Origin: Petroclostridium xylanilyticum
Lineage (GTDB): Bacteria > Bacillota > Clostridia > SK-Y3
Direction: 5' to 3'
DNA length: 64,000 nucleotides
Assembly (NCBI RefSeq): GCF_002252565.1
Contig: NZ_NPML01000007.1
Coordinates: 310,001-374,000, forward strand
In this document: piece by piece, positions 3,729 through 30,634 of the stretch
How the letters are laid out: every line of letters starts with the position of its first letter
How positions within the stretch are numbered: the first letter of the stretch is position 1
The notes under the pieces: model-generated
What the model was told of the DNA's origin: nothing
Databases searched by the model: none
Seen by the model: the letters and a program-made list of their open reading frames with translations, nothing else
Made by a program: the position numbers and the translations under genes

Positions 3729-4565
3729 CTATTTTAACAAGCTGTAAATAATGATAAATATACCTACTGTCCAGCAGTAATATGAAAATAAATAGAACTT
3801 TCCCCTGTTCAGCAGGTTAATTAAAAACTTAATTGCTATAAATCCTGTAATTGCTGCTGCCAAAGTTCCTGCAGTATAAGAAAATACATCAGTGCTATTG
3901 AACCCTTGCTTCATTAAATCCGGTACCTGTAATACTGCTGCTCCCAGAATGGCAGGAATAGACATTAAAAAAGAAAACTTTACGGCAAATTCTTTTTTAA
4001 GACCATTCAATAATGCACCTACTATTGTTGAGCCGGAACGGGAAATTCCCGGTGTTATGGCAAGACTTTGAAACAAGCCTATCACAAAGGCATTGGAGTA
4101 TTTTACATTTTTTTCATCTTTAGATCCAGGAATTAATTTACTGGTAATCCACAATAAAAATCCGGTAAATAACAGCGTAAATCCTACTACCCGGATAGAC
4201 TTAAACATAGTCTCAAAGGCATCTTTAAAAAGAAAACCTATTATTACTGCTGGAATAGTTGCAGTAATAAGAAGCATGACCATTCTTCTGTAAGGTGATG
4301 AATTAATATTTATATTACCTTTAGGAATATCTGCCATCATCTCAAAAAACTCTTTTATCAAATGATATATGTCTTTGCTATATACCAAGCAAATAGATAG
4401 CAAAGTTCCAAAATGAAGCAAGGTATCAAACAGTAAATGACTTTGTTCAAGTTCATTCATACCGAATAATTCTTGAAAAATTACCAGATGCCCTGAACTG
4501 CTAACTGGTAAAAATTCAGTCAACCCCTGTACAATCCCCAGTATGATTGCAACAAATGTATTCAT
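3729..4565 (-). CDS. uppP: undecaprenyl-diphosphatase UppP (BacA)
   Basis: Integral membrane enzyme that dephosphorylates undecaprenyl diphosphate to recycle the lipid carrier of cell-wall synthesis; overproduction gives bacitracin resistance in other species. At 278 residues it is of normal family length. The two signature motifs are present: a Glu/Ser-rich [15 protein letters not shown] near residue 14 and [10 protein letters not shown] near residue 170. The rest is a series of hydrophobic helices. The ATG follows an AAGGGG site. It ends 10 nt before ftsK, so the two are probably one transcript. It fits functionally with uppS further along the window, which makes the same lipid carrier. Confidence 0.96.
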
Positions 4566-4730: not shown

Positions 4731-4879
4731 TATATATTTACTGATAATGATTTTACATGGCAGATAAAGTCAATAAGTTTACGGTTCACGGTTTATGGTT
4801 CACAGTTCACGGTTCACGGTAAAAGCTATTAAATCGTTTACTACTGTAAACTGAGAACTGTTAACTGTGAACTATATAT
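4731..4879 (+). repeat. dispersed heptamer element, copy A
   Basis: First of three related intergenic copies (the others are at 20317-20430 and 29621-29751). It has a unique left segment starting TATATA and containing ACATGGCAGATAAAG. Six in-phase heptamers of the type GTTCACG or GTTTACG follow at 4777-4818. A spacer with GCTATTAAATCGTTT comes next, and then inverted heptamers CTGTAAA, CTGAGAA, CTGTTAA, CTGTGAA, CTATATA at 4844-4878. The two arrays can pair as arms of a hairpin. The last heptamer supplies the TAG stop codon of ylzJ. This is the longest of the three copies because its left array is expanded. Both ends carry TATATA, which could reflect TA-rich target preference; I see no transposase. 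Confidence 0.85.
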
Positions 4880-5142: not shown

Positions 5143-5940
5143 TCACTCAGTTTTATCTTTTTGAACATTACTATCGTCTTTCTGCATATTAGTACTATTA
5201 GTTTTTTGGCTCTCTTTCTTTTTTTCAATCATCTCATATAATTTATTAAGCGCATCGGATACTCCTCCCAGTTGGTCTATCAAACCATTTTTCACCGCAT
5301 CTTCCCCAAATAGAACTGTCCCTACATCATTTGCCAGTTCTCCTGTTTTCAGCATAAGCTCTCTAAACTTTTCCCTGGATATTCCTGAATTTCTCGTAAC
5401 AAACTGCACTACTCTCTCTTGCATTCTATCAAAATATTCAAAGGTCTGTGAAACTCCAATTACCAACCCTGTCATTCTTATAGGATGGATTGTCATTGTA
5501 GCAGAAGGCGCAATAAAAGAGTGTTTTGCTGCAACTGCCAGTGGTACTCCGATGCTATGCCCTCCTCCCAGTACTAGTGAAACAGTAGGTTTCTTCATAC
5601 TTGCAATCATTTCTGCAATTGCAAGTCCTGCTTCAACATCTCCGCCTACTGTATTTAGAATTACCAGCAATCCGTCAATTTCTTCATTTTCTTCAATAGC
5701 TATCAGTTGAGGAATAACATGTTCATATTTTGTAGTCTTATTTTGTGGCGGAAGTGTAATATGACCTTCTATTTGCCCGATAATGGTTAAACAATGAATA
5801 TTGCCTCTGGAGCTTCTAACTTTGGATGCACCAAATTCTTTTATACTTTCGATATTTTCTTTGTCATCTTCAACTTTTTTTTCCTTATCATCGTTCATCT
5901 TAATAAAAGTTATTTTATTCTCATTTGCTCCATCAAACAT
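5143..5940 (-). CDS. tepA: ClpP-class serine protease TepA
   Basis: A 265-residue protein of the ClpP/crotonase fold, known in B. subtilis as TepA/YmfB (translocation-enhancing peptidase), a cytoplasmic peptidase linked to protein export and to spore SASP turnover. The likely nucleophile is S129 in GGGHSIGVP and the likely His is H152 in MTIHP. A charged N-terminus of about 45 residues and a K/Q-rich C-terminal tail flank the domain. The ATG used here has an AGGAG site 8 nt upstream; an in-frame ATG 14 codons earlier lacks one. The order tepA-ylzJ is the conserved Firmicutes arrangement upstream of spoIIIE. Confidence 0.9.
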
Positions 5941-5970
5941 TTTTTCACTCCTGTCAAGCTTTAATATAAA

Positions 5971-5999
5971 TCTATATAGCAACTACTATTAGTATACAA
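5971..5999 (-). promoter_or_regulatory. possible sigma-A promoter of tepA
   Basis: Minus-strand TTGTAT, a 17-nt spacer and TATAGA lie about 30 nt upstream of the tepA start codon. The spacing is ideal and the boxes are moderate matches. It is divergent from the metA promoter about 100 bp away. Confidence 0.42.
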
Positions 6000-12396: not shown

Positions 12397-12456
12397 TATA
12401 GTATTACCTCCTTGTTTGTCTTACGTAAGAACTATTAAGAATATATTACATCGGAG

Positions 12457-12540
12457 TAGCTACTAGTTTTTAGCACTTAGATTTATACTTTAGCAGCAGC
12501 TGCTAAAGTATAAATCTAATGGCTAACTACTAATAGCTAC
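12457..12540. repeat. inverted heptamer arrays in the rpsO-pnp gap
   Basis: The left array is TAGCTAC, TAGTTTT, TAGCACT, TAGATTT (12457-12484). The right array is CTAATGG, CTAACTA, CTAATAG, CTAC (12516-12540) in inverted orientation. Between and overlapping them is a nearly perfect palindrome, AGATTTATACTTTAGCAGC at 12479-12497 with its complement ending at 12517. The whole 84 bp can fold as one hairpin. Sequence differs from the GTTCACG element, but the 7-nt phase and inverted layout are the same. Confidence 0.8.
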
Positions 12541-16270: not shown

Positions 16271-16305
16271 TAATTCGCAATTCTCAATTGTCAATTCTCA
16301 ATTCT
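16271..16305. repeat. heptamer array at the infB stop codon
   Basis: TAATTCG, CAATTCT, CAATTGT, CAATTCT, CAATTCT run in phase with a 7-nt period and overlap the TAG stop codon of infB. A partly repeated ATAATTCGCA segment lies just before it (16258-16280). No convincing inverted partner array is visible, unlike the other sites. Confidence 0.75.
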
Positions 16306-19211: not shown

Positions 19212-20249
19212 CTAAACATTATCCTGTGACTCGCTTTTTATATCAATTTTCCAGCCTGTCAATTTTGCTGCTAACCTGGCATTTTGTCCTTCTTTACCAA
19301 TAGCCAGAGATAATTGATAGTCAGGCACCACAACTTTTGCCGATTTTTCAGCCTCATTTACTTCCACTTTTAATACCTTGGCAGGACTTAAACTGGCTGC
19401 AATATATTCTGCAGGATCAGAGCTCCACTTTATAATATCTATTTTTTCACCTCTTAATTCATCTACAATTACTTGAACCCTATTACCTTTCTGTCCCACG
19501 CAAGCTCCCACCGGGTCAACATTAGGGTCAACAGAGTGGACTGCAATTTTTGTCCTGGAACCGGGCTCTCTTGAAATACTTTTAATTACAACAATGCCAT
19601 CATATATTTCCGGAACTTCCTTTTCAAAAAGTCTTTTTACCAACCCCGGGTGGGTTCTGGAAATGAGAACTTGTGGCCCTTTAGTAGTCTTTTTCACTTC
19701 AATAACATAAACTTTAATCCTGTCATTGAAATTATATACCTCTCCAGGAACTTGTTCGTTCGGTGCAAGTATAGCCTCAATTTTTCCCATTTCGACTATC
19801 ACATTTTTCTTTTCAATCCGCTGCACAATTCCTGTTACAATATCATTTTGTTTGCTGAAAAATTCATCATAAATTATTCCTCTTTCAGCTTCCCTTATAC
19901 GTTGTACTACAACTTGCTTAGCAGTTTGTGCGGCTATTCTCCCAAATTTTTTGGGTGTAACTTCAATTTCAACAATATCGGATATATCATATTTTTTACT
20001 AATGCTACGCGCATCTTCAAGGCTTATTTCCACCAAATCATTTTGTACTTCTTCAACAACTTTTTTCTTGGCATATACCCTGACTTCACCTGAAATCCTA
20101 TCAATCACTACCGACACATTTTGAGATGAACCAAAATTCCTCTTGTAAGCAGAAATAAGTGCAGCCTCAATGGCATCAATCAATACTTCTGTACTTATAT
20201 GTTTTTCTTTGGCTATTTGTTCCAATGCCCCAATGAATTCAGCATTCAT
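19212..20249 (-). CDS. nusA: transcription termination/antitermination factor NusA
   Basis: RNA polymerase-associated pausing and termination factor. The 345-residue protein has an N-terminal polymerase-binding domain (to about 125), an S1 domain, and KH1 and KH2 domains with GACVGQKGNRVQVIVDELRG and LAIGKEGQNARLAAKLTGW as signatures. It lacks the C-terminal acidic repeats of proteobacterial NusA, as usual in Firmicutes. I chose the second nearby ATG, which has a GGGGAGG site 7 nt upstream; the frame could be read about 40 codons further back, but only into repeat DNA. Confidence 0.96.
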   Translation of the reverse strand: MNAEFIGALEQIAKEKHISTEVLIDAIEAALISAYKRNFGSSQNVSVVIDRISGEVRVYAKKKVVEEVQNDLVEISLEDARSISKKYDISDIVEIEVTPKKFGRIAAQTAKQVVVQRIREAERGIIYDEFFSKQNDIVTGIVQRIEKKNVIVEMGKIEAILAPNEQVPGEVYNFNDRIKVYVIEVKKTTKGPQVLISRTHPGLVKRLFEKEVPEIYDGIVVIKSISREPGSRTKIAVHSVDPNVDPVGACVGQKGNRVQVIVDELRGEKIDIIKWSSDPAEYIAASLSPAKVLKVEVNEAEKSAKVVVPDYQLSLAIGKEGQNARLAAKLTGWKIDIKSESQDNV

Positions 20250-20316
20250 TTTCATTCCTCCCCTATTAAGTTTTTTTATATCGATAACCAATATTAAAGT
20301 TAAACATAAATTAATG

Positions 20317-20430
20317 TATATACTTACTGATAATGATTTTACATGGCAGATAAAGCCAATAAGTTCACGGTTCACAGTAAAGGCTATTAAATCGTTTGCT
20401 GCTGTGAACTGTTAACAGTGAACTATATAG
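20317..20430 (+). repeat. dispersed heptamer element, copy B
   Basis: Shortest of the three copies. The left segment TATATACTTACTGATAATGA and the ACATGGCAGATAAAG block match copy A. The left array is only GTTCACG, GTTCACA. After the GCTATTAAATCGTTT spacer the inverted right array reads, on the minus strand, GTTCACT, GTTAACA, GTTCACA. It lies inside the rimP-nusA operon, in the opposite orientation to transcription, and so should be present in the mRNA as a hairpin. Confidence 0.85.
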
Positions 20431-20441
20431 TTATCGATGAA

Positions 20442-20488
20442 AGTAACCAACTTTAATATCTAAATATTTAGTTTTAAAGTTGGTTACT
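20442..20488 (-). other. hairpin between rimP and nusA
   Basis: Perfect 15-bp arms AGTAACCAACTTTAA (20442-20456) and its complement (20474-20488) begin exactly at the rimP stop codon and enclose an AT-rich palindromic loop. There is no U-run after it, so it is more likely an mRNA stability or processing element, or a weak attenuator, than a full terminator. Confidence 0.6.
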
Positions 20489-20949
20489 TATAAGACGGCT
20501 AATCTCACTAAAGCAATTTTTTCTTTATCTATTTCAATTATGTTTCCTTCATCAAGTCTAACAGTTATATTGCCATTGTTATAAGCTTCTAATGTGCCTG
20601 ACAACATTTTTGTCCCGTTTATGGCCTGATATAGTTTTATCTCAATTTTATGACCTATGAACTTTAGAAAATCTTTTTCTTTCTTTAGCGGTCTGTCAAG
20701 GCCGGGTGATGAAACTTCCAAATAATAGCTCTGCTCTATAGGGTCCACCCTGTCCAATTCATCACTTATTTCCTTACTTACAGCTTCACAATCGTCTAAC
20801 GTGACTCCATCTTCTTTATCAATAAACACCCTTAAAAACCAATTAGCACCTTCTTTTTTAAACTCCACATCTACAACTTCACAATTGTTCTTTTGGGCGA
20901 TAGGCTCCGCCAAGTTATAAACAATGTCCTCAACTCTTAATTTGGGCAA
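20488..20949 (-). CDS. rimP: ribosome maturation factor RimP
   Basis: A 153-residue factor for 30S subunit maturation. It carries the family segments GANWFLRVFIDKEDGVTLDDC and YYLEVSSPGLDRPLKKEKDF, with a C-terminal SH3-like barrel. The start codon is TTG, supported by an AAGGTGGGA site 6 nt upstream. It is the first gene of the operon rimP-nusA-rnpM-ylxQ-infB-rbfA-nrnA-truB-ribF. Confidence 0.95.
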   Translation of the reverse strand: MPKLRVEDIVYNLAEPIAQKNNCEVVDVEFKKEGANWFLRVFIDKEDGVTLDDCEAVSKEISDELDRVDPIEQSYYLEVSSPGLDRPLKKEKDFLKFIGHKIEIKLYQAINGTKMLSGTLEAYNNGNITVRLDEGNIIEIDKEKIALVRLAVL

Positions 20950-27429: not shown

Positions 27430-28443
27430 TTAGCGCCCAACTATCCTGGCAATGTCATTAAAGGTAGCAAATATAAGTAATATAATTAGCATAGCAAATC
27501 CTATCAGGTGTACCATTCCTTCTCTTTCAGGGCTAATTGGTTTTCTTCGAATCCCCTCAATGAGTAAAAACATAATTTTACTTCCATCCAGTGCCGGAAT
27601 TGGAAGTAGATTAAAAATACCTAGATTTATACTTATCAACGCTGCCAGGAAGGCTAAATTTCCAATTCCTGCCTTTGCTGCACTTCCAATTCCCTGCACA
27701 ATTCCTACCGGGCCCGAAATTTGATTAAGTCCGGCCTTTCCTGTAACCAGATCACCTAATGAAGTAACGATAACTTTTGTTAAAAAAGCTGTCTGGTAGT
27801 ATGCATTGCTAATTACATTGTAAAAGTTTGTTTTTACACTCTTGGCATTGTAGCCTATAATATAAGTTTGATATTTAGGGTCCAATTCCGGTTTAAGCTG
27901 AAAAGAAATTCTTTGCCCTTGTCTTAAAACAATTACCTTTATCATGTTATCCTTGTTTTTATCCAGAAAGTATCTTACATCATTTTGAATATTGACCTTG
28001 TAATCATTAAGCTGTATAATTCTATCCCCCGGTAAAATTCCAGCTTTCTCAGCAGGTTTTCCAGGAACCAGTTCCCCTACAACAGGCTGTGGTATTGCAG
28101 GCTCCATAGAAAGAATAATTATAAAAATCAAAAAGCCTAAAATAAAGTTCATAATTGCCCCCGCAGCAACCACAGCAATCCTGGCCCACAGAGGCTTATT
28201 ACTAAAAGCTCTTTCATCCTTCGAGCTTTCAACTTCTCCTTCCATCATAACAAACCCGCCAATCGGAAATGCTCTTAAAGAGTACACCGTCTCACCTTTA
28301 GTAAACTTAGCCAACCGCGGTCCCATACCAATAGCAAACTCATGAACTTTTATACCAACCAGTTTCGCAATAGTGAAGTGCCCTAATTCGTGAAAAAAGA
28401 TCAACAATGCAAATACAACAACAGCTGATATTAAGGTAGTCAA
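27430..28443 (-). CDS. rseP: site-2 intramembrane zinc metalloprotease RseP
   Basis: Membrane protease (RasP in B. subtilis) that cuts anti-sigma factors, signal peptide remnants and division proteins within the membrane. The HExxH motif is H18-H22 in FFHELGH in the first membrane helix. A PDZ domain spans roughly 115-190. The second active-site motif LLPIPALDG lies near residue 290 before the last helix. At 337 residues it is slightly short but complete. It overlaps dxr by 4 nt. Confidence 0.95.
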
Positions 28444-29603
28444 ATTGAATCACCAAGCCTTTCTGCTCTTACTACTTCTCTTGCCCAACTATCACTGTTT
28501 AAAATATCTCTTAATGACGGATTTATAATATTATTATGCTTCTTCATTGCACTTTCAATTAGTTGAGGAATTTCTATAAAGCCAATTCTTTTTTCCAAAA
28601 ACAATTGTACAGCCATTTCGTTTGCGGCATTTAACACAGCAGGCATTGTACCGCCTTCCCGGGCTGCAGTATAAGCGAGCCTTAAGCATTTAAAAGTCTC
28701 AAAGTCCGGTTGACTAAATGTCAATGTATTGTTCTGTATAAAATCAAGGCTTCTAGTATCTGAATAATACCGTTCAGGATATGTAATGGCATACTGAATA
28801 GGTATCTTCATATCCGGCACACCTAACTGTGCAATAATTGAATGGTCTATGTATTCAACCATAGAGTGGATGATACTTTGTGGGTGGATCAACACCTGTA
28901 TCCTATCTAAATCTATATTAAACAGCCATTTAGCTTCAATTACTTCCAATCCCTTATTCATCAATGTTGCCGAATCAATGCTGATTTTATTTCCCATGTT
29001 CCATTTTGGATGCTTTAAAGCCTGCTCTGGAGTTACATTTTCCAATTCCTCAAGTTTCTTACCTAAAAAAGGACCTCCTGAAGCAGTAATGATAAGTTTT
29101 TTTACAAATTTATCTTCTACATTTTGCTTAAGACATTGAAAAATTGCCGAATGCTCACTATCAACAGGTATAATGGCTACCTTGTTCATCCGGGCTTCAT
29201 TCATTACGATTTCCCCAGCTGTAACAAGAGTTTCTTTATTTGCTAACGCAATATGCTTACCCGATTTTATTGCCTCCAGAGTAGGGATAAGTCCTACAAC
29301 TCCAACTACAGAAGTTACTACCATCTCAACCTGTGCAATGGTTGAAACTTCTATGAGTCCATCTAATCCTGCAACAACCCGCGTATTTGTGTCTTTTACC
29401 CTATCTTTCAATTCGCCGGCATAATCCTCATCCATGACCGCAGCTACAACGGGCCTATATTTTCGTATCTGCTCCTCCAACAAATCTATTCTTGTATTTG
29501 TAGACACCCCCCAAACCCTAATGCTCTGTAGATTATCAATTACCTCCAATGTCTGAGTTCCAATAGACCCCGTTGACCCCAGTATAGATATATTTTCCAC
29601 CAT
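28440..29603 (-). CDS. dxr: 1-deoxy-D-xylulose-5-phosphate reductoisomerase
   Basis: Converts DXP to MEP with NADPH; target of fosmidomycin. The NADPH-binding motif GSTGSIGTQT begins at about residue 9, and the substrate/metal site is seen in VDSEHSAIFQCL near 147 and NKGLEVIEAKWLF near 222. The 387 residues match family length. It is first in the dxr-rseP-ispG-GT2 run, downstream of cdsA and separated from it by two repeat elements. Confidence 0.97.
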   Translation of the reverse strand: MVENISILGSTGSIGTQTLEVIDNLQSIRVWGVSTNTRIDLLEEQIRKYRPVVAAVMDEDYAGELKDRVKDTNTRVVAGLDGLIEVSTIAQVEMVVTSVVGVVGLIPTLEAIKSGKHIALANKETLVTAGEIVMNEARMNKVAIIPVDSEHSAIFQCLKQNVEDKFVKKLIITASGGPFLGKKLEELENVTPEQALKHPKWNMGNKISIDSATLMNKGLEVIEAKWLFNIDLDRIQVLIHPQSIIHSMVEYIDHSIIAQLGVPDMKIPIQYAITYPERYYSDTRSLDFIQNNTLTFSQPDFETFKCLRLAYTAAREGGTMPAVLNAANEMAVQLFLEKRIGFIEIPQLIESAMKKHNNIINPSLRDILNSDSWAREVVRAERLGDSI

Positions 29604-29620
29604 AATATGATATTCTCCTT

Positions 29621-29751
29621 CTATATATAGTTCACAGTTAACAGCTCTCAGTTCACAGTAGTAAACGATTTAATAGCCTTTACTGTGAACCGTGAACTGT
29701 GAACTTATTGACTTTATCTGCCATGTAAGATCATTATCAGTAAGTATATAG
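29621..29751 (-). repeat. dispersed heptamer element, copy C
   Basis: Reverse-oriented relative to copies A and B. On the plus strand it begins with the array GTTCACA, GTTAACA, GCTCTCA, GTTCACA and passes through the AAACGATTTAATAGC spacer. The array CTGTGAA, CCGTGAA, CTGTGAA comes next, and it ends with the ACATGGCAGATAAAG-type block and TATATA. It sits in the dxr-cdsA gap, 18 bp upstream of the dxr start codon, and is presumably transcribed. Confidence 0.85.
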
Positions 29752-29763
29752 AATAGTCAGGAT

Positions 29764-29834
29764 TTCGGGGTTCGGAGTTTAAAAAACGGTTGTAACAATA
29801 CCTCTTCAAACTCCTAACTCCGAACTCCTAACTT
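29764..29834. repeat. inverted heptamer arrays at the cdsA stop codon
   Basis: The left array is TTCGGGG, TTCGGAG, TTTAAAA. The right array is CAAACTC, CTAACTC, CGAACTC, CTAACTT in inverted orientation (29807-29834). The last right-hand heptamer contains the TAG stop codon of cdsA. It lies only 12 bp from copy C but uses a different heptamer, so two repeat types stand side by side in one gap. Confidence 0.8.
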
Positions 29835-30634
29835 ATTATATTAAAATTAGCTGTAAAATAGTATACCAACGGTGCTACAAAGATAATACTGTCAAACCGG
29901 TCTAATACGCCTCCATGTCCAGGCATTATCTTGCCAAAATCCTTTATATGATATTGCCTTTTAATAGCAGACGCTGATAAATCACCAATTTGGGAAACAA
30001 TTGAACAAGCTAGCCCTAATATAAATAAATTTATATAGTCAACATTATACTTTCCCAAAATATCCAGCAGGTATCCATATAACAAAAAGGATGCTCCACA
30101 GCCAACAATTCCCCCGATAGCACCTTCCAGTGTTTTTTTGGGACTTATTTCAGGCCATAATTTAGTTTTACCTAAAAAAGTACCTGTAAAGAACGCAAAA
30201 GTGTCAGTAGTCCATGCACCTAAAAATATCAACCAAATTAAAGTATTGCCATGAGATAGATTTCTTGTAAAAACAATGTGGGAAAAGAAAAAGCTTATGT
30301 ATACTGTTGCAAAAAGAGTTACAGCAATGTCAGTAAATCGCACCATTTTATGATATATCAAAACAAACAAAAATAATAGCACTACATACCCATATATTAA
30401 AGGCATCACCCAGTTTTGACCGATAAAATTACTGAAGGCGACAATTACTGCACTCAAATATCCGGCTAACGTCAATAATACATTTTTTGTATTTCCTACA
30501 GCAGTAAACAGTTCATACAACGCAATGATTGAAATTACGGCAACACCAATATTAATAAATATTTTATCTACTATTAATACTACTATTAATAATATAATTC
30601 CAACTACTGCACTTATTATTCTTTTGCTAAACAC
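29828..30634 (-). CDS. cdsA: phosphatidate cytidylyltransferase
   Basis: Membrane enzyme making CDP-diacylglycerol from phosphatidate and CTP, the branch point of phospholipid synthesis. The 268-residue protein has about seven hydrophobic helices. The CDS signature is near the C-terminus: SAIKRQYHIKDFGKIMPGHG followed by GVLDRFDS. It starts directly after uppS (no gap). Its stop codon lies in a heptamer array. Confidence 0.96.
   Translation of the reverse strand: MFSKRIISAVVGIILLIVVLIVDKIFINIGVAVISIIALYELFTAVGNTKNVLLTLAGYLSAVIVAFSNFIGQNWVMPLIYGYVVLLFLFVLIYHKMVRFTDIAVTLFATVYISFFFSHIVFTRNLSHGNTLIWLIFLGAWTTDTFAFFTGTFLGKTKLWPEISPKKTLEGAIGGIVGCGASFLLYGYLLDILGKYNVDYINLFILGLACSIVSQIGDLSASAIKRQYHIKDFGKIMPGHGGVLDRFDSIIFVAPLVYYFTANFNIIS

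Follow-up and report, generated by a model that had tools for sequence, protein, structure and literature searches.

The window, a 64,000-nucleotide stretch of the Petroclostridium xylanilyticum genome, holds three copies of one short element, which we call family A, at 4731-4878 (+), 20317-20429 (+) and 29624-29750 (-), each lying between two genes. A preliminary description of this DNA had reported three copies of one element; they are real, although their spans lie a few bases off those it gave, and the fixed block, the loop spacer and the TATATA ends are present in all three as it had stated. Its heptamer counts held for the left arms (6, 2 and 3), whereas the right arms contain 4, 3 and 4 units and not 5, 3 and 4. 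The copies, their parts and their settings are as follows:

4731-4878 (+), family A copy 1, 148 bp (covariance model match, 135.4 bits), between an uppP-like gene (3729-4565) and a ClpP-like protease gene (5143-5982)
4731-4776 (+), copy 1, TATATA end and fixed left block (from the consensus of 45 copies)
4777-4819 (+), copy 1, arm 1, six GTTCACR-type heptamers
4820-4845 (+), copy 1, loop TAAAAGCTATTAAATCGTTTACTACT
4846-4878 (+), copy 1, arm 2, four heptamers (GTAAACT GAGAACT GTTAACT GTGAACT) and ATATA end
20279-20316 (+), left half of the R2 palindromic repeat split by copy 2
20317-20429 (+), family A copy 2 (locus L001), 113 bp, within the R2 repeat (from empty-site comparisons), between rimP (20488-20949) and nusA (start near 20249)
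20363-20377 (+), copy 2, arm 1, two heptamers
20378-20403 (+), copy 2, loop
20404-20424 (+), copy 2, arm 2, three heptamers
20430-20495 (+), right half of the R2 palindromic repeat split by copy 2
29624-29750 (-), family A copy 3, 127 bp (covariance model match, 160.3 bits), between a cdsA-like gene (29828-30634) and dxr (28440-29603)
29683-29704 (-), copy 3, arm 1, three heptamers
29657-29682 (-), copy 3, loop
29629-29656 (-), copy 3, arm 2, four heptamers

Two further structures were seen in the window. A second hairpin, at 29763-29846, adjoins copy 3 and uses a different dialect of heptamers in its arms (AGTTAGG/AGTTCGG, with the complement), and a near-perfect 85-bp palindrome with 42-nt arms, 88% complementary around a 1-nt spacer, lies between two genes at 12456-12540.

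Family A is abundant in the genome. The pattern TGATTTTACATGGCAGATAAAG, with up to three mismatches allowed, matched 54 times against 0 for the reversed control, and a single one of these matches, at locus L093, is a chance match within a gene. With a 113-base query and a 22-base core pattern (control 0) we recognise approximately 54 copies in 3.86 Mb, and a covariance model made from 20 copies raises this to approximately 60 once truncated copies are included. The prediction of many genomic copies with common boundaries, as opposed to just three copies with no common boundaries, is therefore borne out by some 54-60 copies and by the TATATA found at either end.

Each element reads, in order, TATATA, a 40-bp fixed block, arm 1, a conserved 26-nt loop, a complementary arm 2 and TATATA. 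Total length ranges from 106 to 157 bp, there is no reading frame of its own, and each arm consists of one to six heptamers, those of arm 1 being of the GTTCACR type. Divergence is low, with a median of 5 differences across the 85 positions outside the arrays, and two 127-bp copies are identical to each other. Every copy is intergenic according to a simple reading-frame caller, in DNA of which 87% of the sampled part is coding; the sole long frame overlapping an element, at the window copy starting at 20317, is an upstream extension of nusA. Family A is thus short, non-coding, multi-copy and intergenic, as bacterial MITEs are. Past TATATA, an inverted repeat at its ends does not exceed that of shuffled sequences (p 0.82).

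Copies that split R2, a second palindromic repeat, reveal how the element inserts. In these copies, the left flank, one TA and the right flank together rebuild an uninterrupted R2 without a gap. The empty sites used here are paralogous R2 repeats and not the same locus in another strain; against them, the joined flanks are 97% identical over 106 bp for window copy 2 (C13:105797-105902), 99% over 102 bp for L026 (C13:105801-105902) and 95% over 111 bp for L027 (C7:389190-389080). A further candidate, L034, gave a gapped alignment with a mis-parsed right end and was left uncounted. Consequently, a target TA becomes TATATA...TATATA: family A goes in at TA, which is duplicated, the outcome of a check for which the preliminary description had called. 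This is the target duplication expected of a bacterial MITE and of an IS630/Tc1-mariner derivative. Relative to intergenic TA sites, C is favoured at -1 (20 of 47 insertions, p 1e-6) and G at +1 (26 of 47, p 1e-13), so that the insertion preference is C-TA-G. Six of the 54 copies lie in R2, which makes up about 1.4% of intergenic DNA (p 1e-4), a coverage that comes from one short query and is possibly underestimated. R2 itself is AT-rich and palindromic, has many copies both here and in the relative G001, and is a nesting site of family A and of the second family, B, described below.

The arms, by contrast with the rest of the element, differ greatly from copy to copy. In nearly all copies, the length of either arm and of the whole element changes in 7-bp steps, giving a ladder of 113, 120, 127, 134, 141 and 148 bp. 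Outside the arrays, four copies (L013, L014, L026 and L036) agree at all 85 positions while their arms hold 3/4, 3/4, 5/3 and 6/4 units, from which it follows that the arrays change faster than point mutations accumulate. The lengths of arm 1 and arm 2 are uncorrelated (rho 0.055, p 0.71, 48 copies), and their unit types differ, arm 1 being almost solely TTCACRG and arm 2 a mixture of GTGAACT, GTTAACT and GAGAACT; the arms are therefore not copied from one another, and coordinated arm copying was rejected. Duplicated units are visible directly, as four TTAACTG in L022 and a doubled 14-mer in L090, and near strain-level alleles of one locus, with flanks 97.6% identical, carry 2 versus 3 heptamers in arm 1 together with a small neighbouring change. 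In sum, either arm gains and loses whole heptamers regardless of the other and outpaces mutation elsewhere in the element, in line with the expansion and contraction of arms anticipated earlier. The period is specific, since the count of tandem arrays in 795 kb is 42 for period 7 but 0-2 when the period is 8, 9 or 10, and the arms carry the variable number of tandem 7-nt units that characterises intergenic heptanucleotide repeats.

Similar arms recur in a second family. Family B, with lengths of 141, 148 and 155 bp, numbers 17 copies when counted by one terminal repeat (16 exact matches); it has heptamer arms as in A, a TA target and imperfect terminal inverted repeats ending in TATATA, which exceed shuffles (p 0.0005), while its loop and ends differ from those of A. 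Family B is younger than family A. It inserts in R2 at the dinucleotide that A copy L026 also occupies, C is its usual base at -1, and it has contributed the right part of the chimera L078, whose left part is A. The left end of A looks like kin of the B terminal repeat by eye, but the likeness does not exceed shuffles and was rejected.

Many more hairpins with unrelated loops are found within 795 kb, hairpins in the relatives G001 and G003 combine the same arms with unrelated loops, and the units come in several dialects (AGTTCAC, AGTTCGG, AATTCTC and AGTGGGG). One of these dialects forms tandem AATTCTC/AATTGTC heptamers in the window at 16272-16305; its pattern has 22 matches in this genome; one relative has a single match, located on a contig almost the same as our genome, and four others have none. 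At L068 of G003, near 1500-1615, the second array is not inverted: AGTTCAC units give way to ATTCACT units that run in the same direction. Among 196 genomes of the class, two-heptamer arrays give 301 matches here (control 2), 188 in G003 and 71 in G001; among the remaining genomes, one has 8 and a few have 1-4. At one G001 locus, the heptamer hairpin sits in a stretch that is missing from the orthologous spacer of this genome.

Family A itself is absent from nearly all relatives. A 93% match in G001, which is filed in another genus, was not accepted as spread between genera, its contig being 97.6% identical to this genome. In fact, identity to this genome is 97.6-99.8% for G001 contigs C11 and C93 but about 75-80% for other G001 loci, and to judge from these identities the two are probably contamination of that assembly or a stray close-strain contig. 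The exact core had no match in viral contigs and a plasmid BLAST gave none, and we rejected carriage by plasmids or viruses on these grounds. An exact 19-nt core gave 13 scattered single matches in 84,980 species genomes, which we take as chance rather than as a wider distribution.

Duplication of TA together with TATA ends is the hallmark of IS630/Tc1-mariner transposases (for bacterial MITEs, see PMC2229807). In the assembly, we found no intact IS630-type gene, only broken IS630 pieces without matching ends, and IS630 matches in three relatives are mostly broken as well. Nor does the assembly yield a longer or autonomous element sharing the ends of A or B (the scan for solitary ends covered 795 kb), such as a MITE would share with its autonomous partner; among the expectations of the preliminary description, the proposed transposase with matching ends found no counterpart. 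Since no such transposase was found, we describe the element as MITE-like but stop short of classing it with the IS630 derivatives. We note that the assembly consists of 41 contigs and may be missing multi-copy elements.

We consider it likely (probability roughly 0.78) that family A is a non-autonomous, MITE-like DNA element moved by a TA-specific mover of the IS630/Tc1-mariner type, with foldback-like minisatellite arms that evolve by slippage. The multiple copies, common ends, TA duplication and heptamer-wise arm change support the earlier reading of a non-autonomous element. A TA-specific DDE transposase would have moved both families, and would now be decayed in, or missing from, the assembly. 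The simplest mechanism for gain and loss of heptamers would be slipped-strand replication or recombination within each arm, helped by the hairpin. Within operons (rimP-nusA and cdsA-dxr), the element would be transcribed as a stable hairpin and could affect mRNA processing, but we see no sign of selection for that role.

That hairpin invites a different reading, in which the element is a conserved cis-regulatory RNA (a terminator, attenuator or processing hairpin) under selection at many operons. Every copy is indeed intergenic and folds as a long hairpin (z about -4 on one strand), and two window copies lie within conserved operons. However, orientation relative to neighbouring genes is even in tandem gaps (19 same, 20 opposite), 25 pairs show no compensatory change, the element contains no T-tract terminator with a T run behind a G+C-rich stem, the window has no Rfam match, the arms vary independently, and nearly all relatives lack the element. 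An RNA family was rejected on the Rfam and covariation results, and we hold selection as a regulatory RNA to be very unlikely; a regulatory role as the cause of spread is unsupported, while a local role is possible. That the copies are REP/REPIN-type palindromes mobilised by Y1 (RAYT) transposases encoded here is extremely unlikely. Twelve Y1_Tnp matches occur, several of RAYT-like length, but 5 of the 10 Y1 loci examined are flanked by another repeat, GGGGACGGTTC; heptamer arrays and A or B ends flank none of the ten. In addition, family A insertions duplicate TA, unlike the products of Y1 enzymes, which to our knowledge make no target duplication. The palindromic GGGGACGGTTC beside several Y1 genes (L152, L142, L269, L271, L272, L274 and L275) suggests a REP/RAYT system in this genome.

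Two further readings place the hairpin itself at the centre. It could be an independent module that arises repeatedly at different sites and was captured by the TA-inserting A and B, which have arms in common but not loops or outer ends; the many hairpins with unrelated loops, the same arms round such loops in G001 and G003, and the several unit dialects all point that way. Yet the single hairpins could have diverged from copies of great age, L078 demonstrates A-B recombination via the arms, and no formation event was observed; we regard this capture as unlikely. More broadly, heptamer-armed hairpins might form a sequence class of their own in this bacterial family, one that renews itself and of which A and B are merely two amplified by-products; copying or slippage would then build inverted 7-bp A-R-T-K-N-N-N arrays round unrelated loops, a possibility that we rate as rather unlikely.

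The MITE-like reading, which we prefer, has close parallels. Bacterial MITEs with TA duplication and TA ends have been reviewed (PMC2229807), and Correia/NEMIS, ERIC and RUP are likewise about 100-200 bp long, non-coding and intergenic, with 5'TA3' ends, target duplication, a long stem-loop and many copies. Family A differs from them in its arms of variable-number 7-bp arrays and in having no significant terminal inverted repeat past TATATA; the same review places CIR among MITEs without such repeats. The closest published mixture of MITE and tandem repeat is BrickBuilt of Porphyromonas gingivalis (PMC4596501), which is MITE-like with an internal tandem repeat, intergenic and species-restricted, but its single array repeats a 23-nt unit and its target duplications are inconsistent, where family A has a TA target and a pair of inverted arrays of 7-nt units. 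Eukaryotic foldback transposons, for example Tetris (PMC4079207), also have inverted arms of short tandem repeats whose number varies by copy, but are far longer and have other target duplications.

Seven-base tandem units, intergenic and variable in number, are known as TAACTGA in Beggiatoaceae (PMC4679880), as GGGNATC in Xanthomonas and Nostoc, with a few inverted pairs reported in Xanthomonas (PMC4692102), and in Geobacter metallireducens (PMC2700814). In contrast to family A, most of these are simple direct arrays that belong to no mobile element and lack both fixed ends and a target duplication. The general type of family A is an already known mobile parasite, while its arm build was not found described for bacteria: the open-access literature, with subscription papers outside our reach, yielded no bacterial element in which both hairpin arms consist of variable tandem units.

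Since A and B have their arms and target site in common, and not their ends, the role of the arms in transposition is directly testable. The approximately 54 near-identical copies are a countable case of minisatellite birth and decay in a mobile bacterial hairpin, and may help to account for the commonness of 7-bp tandem repeats between bacterial genes.
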